Source: Ignavibacteriales bacterium (GTDB lineage: Bacteria; Bacteroidota; Ignavibacteria; UBA10030). Taken from it: a DNA stretch of 42,023 nt. Where the stretch lies: the NCBI GenBank assembly GCA_026390595.1, contig JAPLFQ010000015.1:1-42023 (forward strand), in the 5' to 3' direction. Position numbers and translations under genes: made by a program. The notes below the pieces were generated by a model. It worked only from the letters and a program-made list of their open reading frames with translations, did no database searches and was not told the DNA's origin. This document shows, in pieces, positions 23,632 to 28,680 of the stretch; position 1 is the stretch's first letter; the number at the start of each line of letters is the position of its first letter.

Positions 23632-23698
23632 AAGGAAAATGGGGGGGAGAATCAAACGGAGAGATGCCAAAGTGCAAACGTGGGGCAAAACTTGATAG

Positions 23699-23727
23699 TT
23701 GAATTCACCCTGCAAAACGCGTAGATT
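23699..23727 (+). promoter_or_regulatory. Sigma70-type promoter of the restriction-modification gene
   Basis: TTGAAT (23699-23704) and TAGATT (23722-23727) are 17 bases apart. The predicted start near 23734 leaves a 40-base leader before the ATG at 23774. It lies in the divergent gap with mazG. Confidence 0.5.
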
Positions 23728-23773
23728 AATTGGACTCCATGGAGCAACACCGCCACTCCTGCAATCATCGTGA

Positions 23774-26700
23774 ATGAGTATGAGCAACCAGCGATCGGCT
23801 TCAAAGTCCTCGATTGAGAAACTCGTCCGGTTCTTCGAGCAGAACATCTATCAGCTTAAGTCCCCGGCCTTCAACGAGACGCAGGCACGCCAACAACTCA
23901 TTGATCCTTTCTTCGAGGCGCTTGGCTGGGATGTCCACAATCGAAAGATGAATCCACTCTATCTGCAGGATGTGATTCCTGAGGGACGGGTGAAGACGAA
24001 CGTGGGCAAAGAGGTCAAAGAGCAGGAAGTGTTATTTGAAAAGAAAGGCACACTGGGGAAGGCGCACAGAGAATACGCTTCAATTCTTGACTACATAGCG
24101 GAAGACAATTATAAGGCAAGCTGGAAAGAGGCGATCAAGAAGCCGGATTACCGTTTCCGTATCAAAGGGCAGACGAAATTCTTCGTTGAGGCAAAAAAGC
24201 CGTTCGTTGATCTCTCGAAGAGCAACGAGGCAATTTTCCAGGTCAAACGATACGGTTTCTCCGGAAGGGTCCCCGTCTCCATTTTAACGGATTTTGAGCA
24301 ATTCAGGACGTTCGATTGTACGCACAGGCCGCAATTTGATAAACCGAAGCTCGGCGCTATCAAAGAGCTCGATCTCACCTACGGCCAATACCTCGATCAG
24401 TTCGACCAGATCTATGATACGTTTTCGCATGAAGCCATCGAAGGCGGATCGCTTGACACGCTGACACGCAAGCTTCTCCAGAAGAAGACAGGTGACTTCG
24501 CGCTCGATAAGCATTTCCTCGAAGACCTTTCTGCTTGGCGCGAGGAACTGGCCCGGGACATCGCAAAGCACCCGAAAAACCGGCGCCGCCTCACCGACTA
24601 CACTCTGAACGAGTCGGTTCAGAGAATACTCGACCGGATTGTGTTCTTCCGTGTCTGTGAGGACCGTGAGATCGAAGTGGAGAACACACTCCTCGCCATT
24701 CTTCGCCTTTGGCAAAGCAGACCCGGCGTGGCCCTCTATTCACTCCTCAATGACCTCTTCAAACAACGGCGATCACTCTATAATGGCTTGCTGTTCGCCT
24801 CGCACGAATGTGAGGAACTTGAGGTAGGGGACGACGTGCTGCTCAAGATACTCCAGGGCCTCAACTATCCCTTTTCTCCCTACTACTTCAATGAGATCGG
24901 GGTCGAGATTCTTGGCAGTATCTATGAGAAATTCCTCGGCAAGACGATTCATCTCACGCCCAAGACCGTCCGCGTGGAGGAAAAGCCGGAGGTGCGAAAA
25001 GCCGGTGGTGTTTACTACACGCCGCAGTATATCGTGAATTACATTGTTGACAACACCCTGGGCAAGCTGCTCTATGACGATGTGGACGGAAACGGAGGGA
25101 AACGGAAGCTCAAGCTCTCTCCCAAACAGGTTTCGAAACTCAAGATCATTGACATCGCGTGCGGGAGCGGATCGTTTCTTCTTGGTGCATTCCAGAAGCT
25201 GACTGATTATCATTTGGAATGGTACCGCGAACACCCGAAGGAAGTCGAGACAGTTCACAACGTACCCGATGCTTATGGCGACGCCAACGGCAATTTGCGC
25301 CTTTCGTCGCGCAAGAAGCGGGACATACTGCTCAACAACATCTATGGCGTGGACATTGACCGGCAGGCGGTTGAAGTGACGCAGATGTCGCTCTATCTCA
25401 AAGTGCTCGAAGGAGAAAACGCTGAGACGCTCAACCCGCAAATGATGCTCGCACTCAGGGAGGCATACCTTCCATCGCTGGGAAACAACATCAAGTGTGG
25501 AAACTCTTTGATTGGGACAGACATTTCGGCTCAGTCGGATCTTTTTGATACTGAGTCCACTCAGAAGATCAATCCGTTTGATTGGGAAACCGAGTTTTCA
25601 GAAATCATGAAACGAGGAGGATTTGACTGTGTCATAGGCAATCCGCCGTACTTGGCTGGCAGGGAATGGACGGAAGACCTGTGGAATCAACGAGATTACT
25701 TGAAGCAGAGATTCAGTTGTATGACTGATCAGTACGATCTCTATGCTCTGTTCTTGCAGAAAGGCGTCGATCTATTGCACGATGGGGGCTATCTTGGATT
25801 CATCACTCCGACAACCTGGTTGAACAATGACCATTACGAGAGCTTGCGCCGGTGGATTGTTTCCAAGACAGAAGTAGAGAATCTGGCAGACTACCGTGAT
25901 GTCGACGTTTTTCCCAATGCTACCGTCCTGCCAGTGGTATTCGTCGGAACAAGGAAGAAACGACCCGACAAAAAGAAGGTCTGCGTAATCAAGAAGTTCA
26001 GTGATCCCAATGCATATACAACTGCATCGTCTTCGGTGTCGGTGTGGGATGAGTTTCCGAGCTTGATCTTCAATCTTTCTCTCACCGATGCTGATGTTCC
26101 AGTAATGAAGAAGGTTGAGCGGTCTGCAAAACAAATTGGTGAGCTTTGCCAAGTTCGTTTCGGAGTGAAGGTCTATCAACGAGGCAAAGGAAGACCTCCT
26201 CAGACTGGAAAGGAGGCAGAGGTGGGGCTGTTCGAGTCGGATAAGAAGAAGGGAAAAGACTACTTCCCTTATGCTTGGGGAAGACATGTTACAAGTTGGC
26301 ACATTGAAGCGAGGCTTCCTTGGTTGAAATATGGGCCGCACCTCGCTGAACCCCGGGATTTCGATTTATTCACTGGTCCGAGAGTCTTGGTGAGACGGAT
26401 CGTCGGCGAGCGATTGATTGTCGCTCCGACAGAGCAAACGTTGATTGCTGACCAATTGCTACACACGGTGAAACCCAAGACAGGCTTAACCGACATTAGG
26501 TATTTGGCGGCTGTTTTGTGCAGCCAGACCATTGCATACTACTTTCGCAAACGATTTAACCGGACTGAAAAGACCTTCCCTGAGATCCGAGTTGGAGAAC
26601 TGGAACAACTTCCTATGCGTACCATCGATTTCACAAATCCGATTGACAAGAGAGGGTATGACAATCTCGTCGCTTCGGTAAGCAAGATTGTCGAGTTGCA

Positions 26701-26851
26701 CGAGCAGCTTCAAAAATCCACGTTCGACAGCGAAAAAGAGCCCATACTGCGTCAAATTGCCGCGACGGACAAGAAGATCGACAAGCTTGTGTACGAGTTG
26801 TATGGATTGACGGAAGATGAGATCAAGATTGTAGAGGGGGGGAGCGAATGA
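23774..26851 (+). CDS. Single-chain type IIG-like restriction-modification enzyme
   Basis: This 1025-residue fusion joins nuclease, methyltransferase and specificity functions. The N-terminal part holds a PD-(D/E)xK site, KPDYRF with D125 followed by FFVEAKK with E139 and K141. A helical linker precedes an N6-adenine methyltransferase domain with motif I DIACGSGSFLLG (from D460), NNIYGVDIDRQAVEVTQMSL, and motif IV VIGNPPY (N623-Y626). The C-terminal third (GVKVYQRGKG.., KTFPEIRVGELEQLPMRTID) resembles the TaqI/Eco57I-type target-recognition domain. Such enzymes methylate host DNA and cut unmodified DNA. Sampled lines of the second half are near 42-47% GC against 50-65% in the first half. A second ATG lies at 23780; neither start has a clear ribosome-binding site. 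Confidence 0.88.
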   Translation: MSMSNQRSASKSSIEKLVRFFEQNIYQLKSPAFNETQARQQLIDPFFEALGWDVHNRKMNPLYLQDVIPEGRVKTNVGKEVKEQEVLFEKKGTLGKAHREYASILDYIAEDNYKASWKEAIKKPDYRFRIKGQTKFFVEAKKPFVDLSKSNEAIFQVKRYGFSGRVPVSILTDFEQFRTFDCTHRPQFDKPKLGAIKELDLTYGQYLDQFDQIYDTFSHEAIEGGSLDTLTRKLLQKKTGDFALDKHFLEDLSAWREELARDIAKHPKNRRRLTDYTLNESVQRILDRIVFFRVCEDREIEVENTLLAILRLWQSRPGVALYSLLNDLFKQRRSLYNGLLFASHECEELEVGDDVLLKILQGLNYPFSPYYFNEIGVEILGSIYEKFLGKTIHLTPKTVRVEEKPEVRKAGGVYYTPQYIVNYIVDNTLGKLLYDDVDGNGGKRKLKLSPKQVSKLKIIDIACGSGSFLLGAFQKLTDYHLEWYREHPKEVETVHNVPDAYGDANGNLRLSSRKKRDILLNNIYGVDIDRQAVEVTQMSLYLKVLEGENAETLNPQMMLALREAYLPSLGNNIKCGNSLIGTDISAQSDLFDTESTQKINPFDWETEFSEIMKRGGFDCVIGNPPYLAGREWTEDLWNQRDYLKQRFSCMTDQYDLYALFLQKGVDLLHDGGYLGFITPTTWLNNDHYESLRRWIVSKTEVENLADYRDVDVFPNATVLPVVFVGTRKKRPDKKKVCVIKKFSDPNAYTTASSSVSVWDEFPSLIFNLSLTDADVPVMKKVERSAKQIGELCQVRFGVKVYQRGKGRPPQTGKEAEVGLFESDKKKGKDYFPYAWGRHVTSWHIEARLPWLKYGPHLAEPRDFDLFTGPRVLVRRIVGERLIVAPTEQTLIADQLLHTVKPKTGLTDIRYLAAVLCSQTIAYYFRKRFNRTEKTFPEIRVGELEQLPMRTIDFTNPIDKRGYDNLVASVSKIVELHEQLQKSTFDSEKEPILRQIAATDKKIDKLVYELYGLTEDEIKIVEGGSE

Positions 26852-26881
26852 AGATGTTAGTCGAGGAATCTGGAGAATCCG

Positions 26882-27610
26882 ATGTTTCTTTTCCTTGATG
26901 AAAGCGGTGATCACGGACTTGTCAATGTCGATCCGCAGTTTCCGGTCTTCGTTCTGTGCGGGATTCTGGTTTCCGATACGGCGTATGAAGCCATCGACAG
27001 GGACGTGCGAGAACTGAAAAAGAAGTTCTGGGGAGAAAAGAAGGTCATTCTGCATTCTCGTGATATACGGAAGTGCGAGAATGAATTCCAGATTCTTTTC
27101 GACGGAGATCTCAAGAAAGCGTTCTATACGGAAATCAACAAGCTTGTTTCCGAATCAGCATACACGATTATCGCTTCCGCCATCAACAAAGAAAATCACA
27201 TCAAGCAGTATGGCAAGCTGGCAAGTGACGTATACGAAATCTCGCTTTCATTCATCATCGAACGATCGGTGTTTTTTTTGGACGATCTGCAATCCGGAAA
27301 CCGTCAGCTACGCATTGTTATCGAGAGAAGAGGCAAGAGGGAGGATGGACGGCTGCAGGAACACTTCCAGCGGCTTTGTTCACGGGGAACAGGGTATGTC
27401 ACTCCTGACAGGATCCGTTCATACGGCATGGACATCGAGTTTCGATCGAAATCAGATGATGTGAATGGTCTGCAATTGGCCGATCTCGTCGCTTACCCGA
27501 TGGCAAGGTATGTCCTGGATCCTAAACGGGCCAATCCCGCATTCGAGGTCCTTGAACCAAAAATCTATGAAAAAAGCGGGAGGCGGTATGGGTTGAAAGT
27601 GTTCCCATAA
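26882..27610 (+). CDS. DUF3800 domain protein
   Basis: This 242-residue protein opens with the DUF3800 signature FLFLDESGDHG and includes VLCGILVSD, KKVILHSRDIRK, a central FIIERSVFFLDDL and the C-terminal QLADLVAYPMARYV. The acidic residues in DESGD, the internal IVIERRGKREDG and the LADLVA aspartate fit an RNase H-like metal-dependent fold, so a nuclease role is possible but unproven. These proteins recur in phage-defence and mobile regions. It starts 31 bases after the restriction-modification gene with GGAGA upstream, suggesting co-expression. One sampled line is about 42% GC, lower than the housekeeping genes. Confidence 0.85.
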   Translation: MFLFLDESGDHGLVNVDPQFPVFVLCGILVSDTAYEAIDRDVRELKKKFWGEKKVILHSRDIRKCENEFQILFDGDLKKAFYTEINKLVSESAYTIIASAINKENHIKQYGKLASDVYEISLSFIIERSVFFLDDLQSGNRQLRIVIERRGKREDGRLQEHFQRLCSRGTGYVTPDRIRSYGMDIEFRSKSDDVNGLQLADLVAYPMARYVLDPKRANPAFEVLEPKIYEKSGRRYGLKVFP

Positions 27611-27710
27611 AAGCAACAAGCCCGCCGAAGCGGGCTTGAGTGCCGACCGGGGACACCCCGATCCAAGATCCTGATGAGAGCCAACGACCGCTAGAGCAAT
27701 CATTGAATCC
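27608..27710 (-). ncRNA. Candidate small RNA with own promoter and terminator
   Basis: On the minus strand a promoter (27717-27745) precedes about 100 bases without a convincing reading frame. The transcript would contain an 8-pair hairpin GAUCGGGG-UGU-CCCCGGUC with one G-U pair. A terminator follows, whose stem is CAAGCCCGC/GCGGGCTTG around a four-base loop, then TTGCTTTT. No known RNA family (tRNA, SRP RNA, 6S, tmRNA, RNase P) is recognised. It faces the 3' end of the DUF3800 gene, so the two transcripts converge and share the terminator. Confidence 0.5.
27617..27638 (-). terminator. Terminator shared by the DUF3800 gene and the small RNA candidate
   Basis: CAAGCCCGC (27617-27625) and GCGGGCTTG (27630-27638) form a perfect nine-pair stem. 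On the minus strand the loop is TTCG and the stem is followed by TTGCTTTT; on the plus strand there is no T-tract. Confidence 0.75.
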
Positions 27711-27716
27711 AACCAT

Positions 27717-27745
27717 ATAATAGCATTCTTTTGGCACCCGGTCAA
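27717..27745 (-). promoter_or_regulatory. Sigma70-type promoter of the small RNA candidate (minus strand)
   Basis: Read on the minus strand, TTGACC (27745-27740) and TATTAT (27722-27717) are exactly 17 bases apart, among the best promoter matches in the window. It points away from the receiver-domain gene toward the DUF3800 gene, and no protein-coding frame follows. Confidence 0.65.
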
Positions 27746-27884
27746 GAAAAAAGCAGTTGTGGTTCGATTGTGCCAAGCGATGTGAATTCAAGAATGTTTA
27801 GACGTCAGCCACAGAGGATTGTATGTGCAGTCTTCTGCGATTTCTTCAGCATTCCTTCAATAATGCAAGTAATAGGGAATTACC

Positions 27885-28259
27885 ATGGACAAAACCATCC
27901 TTGTCGTAGACGACGAAATGGCGATCCGCATGATACTCGAGACTCTTTTGGGGCAGCGATTTGACGTTGTGTGCCTCGAAAACGGCGAACAGGCGCTCGA
28001 TTGGCTGAAGGAGAACAAGCTCCCGGATTGTATGATACTCGACCTTTCGATGCCCGGAATTGACGGCTTCGAGGTAATTCGCCGGATGCGCGAGGACCGG
28101 TCCCTTGCCCAGGTGCCGGTCATCGTCCTGTCATCCAAAGATAGCACAGCAGACAGGATCCGCTGCTCGACTCTCGGAGCGCACGAGTACGTGGTGAAAC
28201 CGTTCCATCCGGCGGACTTAGAAGCCCGGATCGACAGTCTCTTCCGACGCCGTGGTTAG
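27885..28259 (+). CDS. Single-domain response regulator (receiver domain only)
   Basis: This 124-residue protein is a complete CheY-like receiver and nothing else. It has the acidic pocket VVDDE (D9, D10), the phospho-acceptor in MILDLSMPG (D53), the switch region VIVLSSKD and the conserved lysine in YVVKPFHP. There is no output domain and no kinase gene nearby, so it must work through protein-protein contact in a phosphorelay or motility-type system; the partner is unknown. It lies downstream of the DUF3800/small RNA locus, and its composition resembles the housekeeping genes. Confidence 0.93.
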   Translation: MDKTILVVDDEMAIRMILETLLGQRFDVVCLENGEQALDWLKENKLPDCMILDLSMPGIDGFEVIRRMREDRSLAQVPVIVLSSKDSTADRIRCSTLGAHEYVVKPFHPADLEARIDSLFRRRG

Positions 28260-28272
28260 ACCGCGTTTCTCG

Positions 28273-28301
28273 TTGTTTTTTTCTCAGTTTCTGAGTACAT
28301 T
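28273..28301 (+). promoter_or_regulatory. Possible promoter of tRNA-Ala
   Basis: TTGTTT (28273-28278) and TACATT (28296-28301) have a 17-base spacer. The expected start near 28308 precedes the tRNA by about 40 bases. Confidence 0.4.
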
Positions 28302-28347
28302 TTCATTGCCCATTGGCCGTTGACCATTCACAATTGGCCATTGCTAG

Positions 28348-28421
28348 GGGGCTGTAGCTCAGCTTGGGAGAGCGCTTCGTTCGCAACGAAGAGGTCGTCG
28401 GTTCGAGCCCGATCAGCTCCA
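28348..28421 (+). tRNA. tRNA-Ala (anticodon CGC)
   Basis: The 74-base cloverleaf is complete. The acceptor stem GGGGCTG/CAGCTCC contains the G3-U70 pair that identifies alanine tRNAs. D-stem GCTC/GAGC, anticodon stem CTTCG/CGAAG with loop TTCGCAA (anticodon CGC, codon GCG), a five-base variable loop, T-stem GTCGG/CCGAT with loop TTCGAGC, and discriminator A are all present. The 3' CCA is not encoded. Confidence 0.95.
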
Positions 28422-28428
28422 CGATGTA

Positions 28429-28566: not shown

Positions 28567-28668
28567 GAGGTCAAGTCCTGTGCAACAAGACGTTGCTCAA
28601 CCCCGCCAGGTCCGGAAGGAAGCAACGGTCGGCAAAGAGTTTTGTGTGACACAGGGTCGCTTGACCTC
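28567..28668 (+). ncRNA. ffs: Signal recognition particle RNA (4.5S type)
   Basis: This hairpin RNA of about 102 bases is the RNA core of the signal recognition particle, which works with Ffh to target nascent membrane proteins. The terminal stem is GAGGTCAAG (28567-28575) with CTTGACCTC (28660-28668). The apical domain carries the invariant GCCAGGTCCGGAAGGAAGCA sequence with the GGAA tetraloop. It is the small bacterial form without an Alu domain. A T-rich run (TTTTTATTTG) follows directly and should end transcription. Confidence 0.95.
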
Positions 28669-28680
28669 TTTTTATTTGTC

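Follow-up and report, generated by a model that had tools for sequence, protein, structure and literature searches.

Behind a DUF3800 gene of an Ignavibacteriales bacterium lies a short stretch of DNA that raises two questions: whether its opposite strand carries a small RNA gene in its own right, and what such an RNA would do to the protein gene that it faces. The window, which is the whole stretch of DNA analysed here, spans 42,023 nucleotides. An initial annotation had proposed, at 27608-27745 on the minus strand, an independent small RNA gene of no family known to it, with a possible regulatory or antisense role towards the DUF3800 mRNA. Our analysis confirmed that the gene is real, and the finding proved larger than first described.

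A small RNA gene convergent to DUF3800

The promoter, the GC-rich eight-pair hairpin and the terminator stem with its U-tract were all located where the initial annotation had placed them, and the RNA gene indeed converges on a DUF3800 gene that lies downstream of a type IIG restriction-modification enzyme (Table 1). The predicted fold comprises three hairpins in the order leader, core and terminator, the first of which was absent from the earlier list. Folding of 27608-27712 on the minus strand gave -50.9 kcal/mol with a z of -5.46, and 0 of 200 shuffles folded equally well. The promoter match by itself is not above chance, with one found against 3.0 expected in 4 kb; the gene was accepted as real because promoter, core and terminator recur in relatives, which together with the fold z bears out its reading as an independent gene. 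The statement that no coding frame occurs here stood in part, because two ORFs that start with TTG (97 and 89 aa) cross the region, but the leader varies in sequence and length among relatives. The T-rich tail of the terminator overlaps the stop codon of the DUF3800 gene, and on the DUF3800 strand a T-run is absent after the terminator stem. The element is single-copy in its own genome.

Table 1. Positions of the features around the small RNA gene in the window.
Feature	Position	Strand	Details
Block between mazG and tRNA-Ala that three congeners lack	23656..28347	.	Restriction-modification enzyme, DUF3800, RNA and response regulator inside
Type IIG restriction-modification enzyme, 1025 aa	23774..26851	+	PADLOC REase_MTase_IIG, E 2.5e-180
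DUF3800 protein, 242 aa, convergent partner gene	26882..27610	+	PF12686
Predicted small RNA, ~100 nt	27608..27710	-	Start inferred from -10 box
Terminator hairpin	27612..27644	-	9-pair stem 27617-27638, T-rich tail
Core motif GGATCGGGGTGTCCCCGGTCGG	27643..27664	-	8-pair hairpin 27645-27663, UGU loop
Variable 5' leader hairpin	27677..27710	-	From the fold
Sigma70-type promoter TTGACC-17-TATTAT	27717..27745	-	-35 TTGACC 27745-27740, 17 nt, -10 TATTAT 27722-27717; 10/12 consensus matches
tRNA-Ala	28348-28424		Adjoins the inserted block, which ends at the tRNA
Small SRP RNA	28569-28669		Near the inserted block

Rfam 15 over the window returned only tRNA and SRP RNA. The covariance search that the initial annotation had proposed, with the small RNA region against all 4227 Rfam models at E <= 10, gave low-scoring matches, none of which reached its gathering score; the near-matches isrB and rsmX at the element were rejected on this ground.

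The window protein matches PF12686 as its only Pfam family (E 1.2e-21, 78.4 bits against a gathering cut-off of 21), and the residues D6, E7, E148 and D201 are invariant in 63 DUF3800 sequences. Structure comparison (VIA) of the protein model, which has a pLDDT of 95.3, revealed RNase HII (1eke) as the best match, with a Z of 11.6 and 3.6 Å over 167 aligned residues, and the top 18 rows were all type 2 RNases H. Foldseek gave RNase HII (E 4.7e-4, TM 0.50) as the sole match under 0.001. The predicted fold of DUF3800 resembles that of RNase HII. Activity does not follow from a common fold, and on the basis of the model the protein is likely a nuclease. The model of a phage DUF3800 protein compares with that of the window protein at a TM of 0.89.

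In three of five congeners (G002, G003 and G005), homology to the window ends at 23655 and resumes at the tRNA-Ala gene (28348), and in the other two (G001 and G004) each flank is on a separate contig; G003 carries its own DUF3800-RNA pair on another contig. Elsewhere, the cassette often lies within type I systems, with the methylase/specificity genes on one side and the restriction genes on the other, as at L040, L042, L053 and L071 (assigned by size and motif). Among 127 upstream and 111 downstream neighbouring ORFs, 66 and 46 on the same strand were chosen by hand for Pfam, and these hand-chosen sets contained 11 N6_Mtase, 11 Methylase_S, 10 HsdM_N and 8 Eco57I upstream, and 16 HSDR_N downstream. 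Many other DUF3800-RNA loci have neighbours unrelated to restriction.

Distribution and conservation among DUF3800 loci

A DNA search of 61 genomes, the own genome included, found the 3' part of the small RNA in three other genomes. The loci L002 and L003 possess a promoter (TTGACA..TATATT) positioned as in the window, a differing leader hairpin, the core and the terminator at the same place beside a DUF3800 gene, and at L004 the core and terminator adjoin a Bro-N gene. The fold z is -6.09, -5.18 and -4.28 for L002, L003 and L004, respectively, and the minimum-energy fold of the whole stretch at L004 is without the core hairpin. An RNA model termed R1 was built from nine training sequences; it matches 27610-27667 of the window, itself a training sequence, at 72.9 bits.

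Of 294 genomes of the class, 20 gave a match in a protein search for DUF3800; in all, 24 DUF3800 loci were read, including two further ones from the family search. By eye, all 24 have a promoter-like, hairpin-forming stretch of one of several sequence types on the convergent strand, with that stretch reaching the frame end and thus only partly visible at L008, L015 and L027, and with L009 of no clear type. From their sequences, the types seem to follow the protein group. R1 matches eight of the 24 loci, all of which are training sequences.

Scanning genome contigs with six DUF3800 sequences retrieved 287 relatives, of which the best 80 were kept. Their record titles name Bacteroidota, Ignavibacteria, Planctomycetota, Nitrospirae, Deltaproteobacteria, Omnitrophota, Obscuribacterales and candidate-phylum bacteria, many of them metagenome bins that may be misplaced. 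At 79 of these best 80 loci, R1 has a convergent match at the 3' end of DUF3800 (E <= 1e-5), or at 76 of 77 apart from L029, L030 and L064, which look like training loci under other names. The sole miss, L090, is on a contig that ends inside the DUF3800 gene with no stop codon, and none of the 79 loci of this subfamily with a readable 3' end is without the RNA. A model made from relatives, as had been suggested, therefore finds further family members, and the element does travel with DUF3800, the cassette often lying in restriction loci.

Nine named plasmid and phage DUF3800 loci were taken from 67 records with matches. R1 matches four plasmid loci of alpha- and betaproteobacteria well (L184-L187, E 5e-11 to 9e-9) and the Paracoccus phage locus L190 weakly (E 4e-4), and finds no match at L188, L189, L191 and L192. 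Inspection by eye revealed hairpins of different sequence beside DUF3800 at L189 and L191, and no convergent RNA beside DUF3800 at L188 and L192, both from Lactobacillales.

Several other RNAs were observed beside DUF3800 genes. One convergent type with the arrangement AATCCAGTT..CTGGAGGTGGAAGG..CCTTTGCCCCG terminator, and variants of it, occurs by eye at L010, L011, L018, L019 and L021-L028, where the RNA sites have no Rfam match. A third type has a GGGAACTGCGTAGCGGG-like core (L008, L015 and L016) and reaches the gene 3' end at L008 and L015, and a GGGGTTTGCGCTAAGCAGCAAGCCGACA-like or similar long hairpin is found beside distant DUF3800 genes (L179-L182 and L189). BjrC68 (RF02353), a Bradyrhizobiaceae small RNA, was rejected as a match at L013 (E 0.0057) and L020 (E 0.085), both below its gathering score. 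Second or tandem copies of the core are present at L032:7010-7069 (-) and L075:2387-2405 (-).

Further analysis of the 79 upstream stretches revealed a Bacteroidetes-type -7 box in 48 (shuffle mean 8.6), a TTGAC-type promoter in 11 (shuffle mean 1.0) and either type in 56. Leaders are measurable behind the -7 box in 31 cases, and 16 of these fold at least as well as 90% of 50 shuffles. They vary greatly in length, some being very short, and by eye are similar in near relatives (L051/L055/L059 and L002/L003).

The core has the consensus GGAYYGGGGUGUCCCCRRUCGG. Among the 79 distinct rows of 82 R1 matches, GA on the 5' side and UC on the 3' side occur in all 79, and the outer pairs, G-C and A-U, are invariant, as is one inner G-C pair. 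The pair 7-22 is U-G in 47 rows, C-A in 15, C-G in 8, U-A in 8 and A-A in 1; it is non-standard in 16 of 79 rows (the 15 C-A and the A-A), a pattern that could reflect a wobble-like geometry. Classical covariation over the 79 distinct rows is not above shuffles because the core is conserved in sequence, and its structure is supported mainly by energy and position. The core is more conserved than the terminator, the reverse of what the initial annotation had named as grounds for abandoning the gene, namely conservation of the terminator with the rest diverging freely.

The core hairpin apart from DUF3800

Searched with R1, the same 294 genomes of the class yielded 16 matches, spread over 15 genomes. 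Seven lie beside DUF3800 genes of the protein search, three beside possible last codons of DUF3800 (L112, L118 and L119, by eye) and four beside other genes; these are Bro-N (L115) and, as identified by eye, a HEXXH protein (L120), pheS (L121) and an AbiEii-like gene (L124). The remaining two matches are weak. In 395 phylum genomes, R1 gave 34 matches in 29 genomes, of which 12 are beside DUF3800 by coordinates. The remaining ones comprise a 94-aa DUF3800 remnant (L159), HsdS, HsdR and Abi_2-like neighbours (by eye), and weak matches. The matches L122, L123, L151 and L165-L168 look weak or false and were discarded. By eye, the core stands beside an Abi_2-like or AbiEii-like gene with DUF3800 not adjacent at L147, L148 and L124.

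Scans of IMG/VR for the exact core gave 14, 5 and 14 contigs, that is, 33 viral contigs, with near-duplicates in L126/L136, L127/L130, L129/L137 and L195/L201. The loop-changed and flank-swapped control patterns were found in 0 viral contigs each, and so was a fixed-loop variant of the core, GGGACTGGGAATNCCCGGTCGG. The pattern of another RNA type occurred in one viral contig, where long ORFs cross the match, which was taken as chance. Phage genes (portal, tape measure, virion, tail, terminase) are present in L128, L130, L133, L135, L202 and L203, among the contigs tested. A DUF3800 gene was detected by tblastn in three of the 33 exact-core contigs (L125, L131 and L194); in the other 30, tblastn found none within the 2.3 to 15 kb examined per contig. 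A DUF3800 protein scan of the viral contigs returned none and is insensitive, since L125, L131 and L194 encode DUF3800. Phage DUF3800 genes lie near a CI-like repressor (L190) or between repressor and integrase (L192).

The phage copies take three forms. In form (a), the core is held within an outer stem, the sequence of which differs between L126/L136/L138, L128/L132 and L139/L141/L142/L143. In form (b), the core lies near tRNA genes: in L133, it precedes the first tRNA gene by 78 bases, in a locus with 16 such genes, and L139 and L141-L143 also have it near tRNA genes. The cultured Flavobacterium phage immuto has the core between tRNA-Glu and tRNA-Gln, enclosed by a stem of its own. Immuto was reached by blast of the L126 and L142 regions against INPHARED (E 10), in which the L137 region found no match and the L130 region two weak ones; the match is trusted because 20 of 21 core letters agree, R1 gives an E of 2.6e-6 and the genome was recovered as an exact-core match (L199). 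A metallophosphoesterase or calcineurin-like phosphoesterase gene was seen near the phage core RNA in L126, L137 and immuto (L183).

In form (c), the core lies between halves that resemble, by eye, a tRNA D-arm (L193, L195, L200, L201, L204, L205 and L206), so that in seven contigs it seems to be inserted in the D-loop of a tRNA-like gene; with L195 and L201 near-identical, the independent cases are fewer than seven. All seven acceptor pairs form in L195, L200, L201 and L205, with 0, 8, 1 and 1 of 100 shuffles as good, respectively, so that the control is middling for L200. L206 and L196 have six of seven, with 32 and 52 of 100 shuffles as good, which makes these controls weak, and L193 fails with four of seven (99 of 100 as good). 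No graft is claimed for L133, where six of seven pairs form and 53 of 100 shuffles do as well. With the core left out, ARAGORN found a tRNA across the junction in L206 (62 of 90 deletions) and L204 (13 of 90), and none across the junction in the other 32 of 34 loci, including L195, L200, L201 and L205. These four have long variable regions, and their tRNA-like reading comes from D-arm, T-arm and acceptor pairing; in L204, the T-arm was not found by pattern. The tRNA covariance model matched at none of the grafted sites. The viral contigs L195 and L201 carry GOLLD RNA, tmRNA and tRNA genes together with the tRNA-grafted core.

Function and relation to known systems

We favour, with a probability of roughly 0.57, the reading that a trans-acting small RNA and the convergent DUF3800 gene make up one two-gene module in which the RNA is inhibitory, and that phages carry decoys of it. 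The core hairpin would be bound by DUF3800, a putative metal-dependent nuclease, and would keep it inactive, acting as an antitoxin or as a licensing RNA. The nuclease might then be freed or redirected upon infection or when the adjacent restriction system is lost. In phages, the core would serve as a decoy or as a mimic of the antitoxin, and tRNA scaffolds and tRNA arrays may be used for its expression and stability. The protein always accompanied by the RNA at readable loci of the subfamily, and the RNA often without the protein, is what one would expect of an effector that is controlled by an RNA. The solitary phage cores and their position among tRNA genes argue for a counter-defence role, as judged from sequence.

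The suggested antisense role on the DUF3800 mRNA, or an element that does no more than shape its 3' ends as a terminator, would agree with the convergent arrangement and the overlap with the stop codon. That overlap comprises only the terminator tail, however, and conservation is highest in a hairpin that is complete in itself and lies outside the gene, where it exceeds the needs of a terminator; together with the missing T-run on the DUF3800 strand and the occurrence of the core apart from DUF3800 in viral contigs, this led us to set such a cis role aside as very improbable. Since the core is also found in viral contigs whose examined DNA has no DUF3800, the RNA would be trans-acting and probably protein-binding. 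A chance pairing of promoter and terminator, for which the commonness of promoter-like matches might speak, is contradicted by conservation (79 of the best 80 of 287 loci), the fold z and the 0 matches of the control patterns, and we regard its probability as negligible.

The main rival to an inhibitory RNA is an activating cofactor or guide, with DUF3800 cutting only with the RNA, like Cas nucleases with crRNA, and the phage copies serving as empty decoys. An obligate RNA partner at DUF3800 loci, a variable 5' leader adjoining a constant core and the phage copies all fit this idea, and the available text of one source suggests a role for a TPR-DUF3800 protein of Cas12a2 loci in interference or crRNA handling (PMC10910872). 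The leaders are very uneven in length, however, and their similarity in near relatives, judged by eye, does not show guide-like turnover, so we consider this explanation rather unlikely. The choice between inhibitor and cofactor rests on the asymmetry of RNA and protein, which faster decay of DUF3800 than of the RNA would also produce (compare L159, and L112, L118 and L119). Alternatively, the RNA may originally have been a phage or mobile-element RNA with a function of its own, which DUF3800 recognises and of which the cellular copies were captured. Such an origin would suit the cores of viral contigs, whose flanks are unrelated and several of which lie close to tRNA genes or next to head genes, but the sites differ between phages, the RNA is present at every readable DUF3800 locus of the subfamily (best 80 of 287), as expected from a cellular source, and it would be strange for a host to express what triggers its own effector; this origin appears improbable.

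More broadly than the inhibitory two-gene module, DUF3800 and its RNA may constitute an unrecognised RNA-controlled nuclease defence module, often in restriction-modification loci and in many phyla, which phages would defeat by stand-alone core RNAs, cloverleaf-like RNAs in tRNA arrays and D-loop grafts that would act as tRNA-scaffolded decoys; we put this forward tentatively, at somewhat less than even odds.

DUF3800-linked RNA motifs are known as a kind, RF02969 (DUF3800-I) and RF02968 (DUF3800-IX) being described in the accessible parts of PMC11701678 (Table 2) and PMC10910872. Like the present RNA, they are structured and linked to DUF3800 genes, and a structured RNA beside the DUF3800 gene was found here at 79 of 80 loci (best 80 of 287). 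Their models have no match to the present RNA, whether in the window region with all Rfam models at E <= 10 or at the other loci, and RF02969 gave 0 matches in 100 class genomes and 0 in control genomes too. The initial remark that no family fits holds for the exact family, which has no Rfam match, but not for the kind.

From its arrangement, the module can be inferred to resemble type III toxin-antitoxin or AbiF systems. In AbiF/RCd22, according to the portion of PMC12373285 available, a non-coding RNA likewise lies beside an effector gene, that of a toxic protein, which the RNA binds directly and so neutralises, both in cis and in trans. That effector is Abi_2, whereas the only Pfam family of the present protein is DUF3800; AbiF/RCd22 is the tested analogue, and the defence reading of the present module is by analogy. 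Type III systems have a repetitive antitoxin RNA co-transcribed with the toxin, as stated in the available passages of PMC5772629 and PMC8860590. ToxIN with pseudo-ToxI shares with the present module an RNA partner of a (here putative) nuclease and phage-borne RNA copies, but ToxI is repetitive and co-transcribed with its toxin (PMC3475682, in part), whereas the present RNA is single and encoded opposite to its partner gene, with a promoter and a terminator of its own. The fold of DUF3800, predicted as RNase HII-like, is a further difference.

Phage mimicry of host RNAs is illustrated by pseudo-ToxI and by Racrs, the RNA anti-CRISPRs, in the sections available of PMC3475682 and PMC10651486. 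Racrs are, as here, solitary phage copies of a host RNA element (PMC10651486); the difference is that the core found here belongs to an RNA linked to DUF3800 and in part is grafted into tRNA-like genes. The accessible part of PMC11555353 reports that tRNAs of phages evade retrons as well as other defences; these too are tRNA-region RNAs in counter-defence, a role that the present cores would share. Unlike them, the present tRNA-like genes bear an extra hairpin that matches the RNA of a host module. Although RNAs linked to DUF3800 are already known as a kind, the present RNA family and the copies of it in phages appear new: we found no description of this family, its restriction-operon setting, or phage copies or DUF3800 decoys in the literature searched, to which preprints and most subscription papers did not belong and of which the sources were partial.

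In the portions of the literature found, DUF3800 has no assigned function, although RNAs near some members are known. The fixed convergent RNA, the RNase HII-like predicted fold, the restriction operons and the phage cores together offer a testable pair of defence and counter-defence. The cultured phage immuto, with its named host Flavobacterium sp. LMO8, is at hand for the question of decoys. If the phage copies are decoys, the hairpin-grafted tRNA-like genes would represent a new form of counter-defence.
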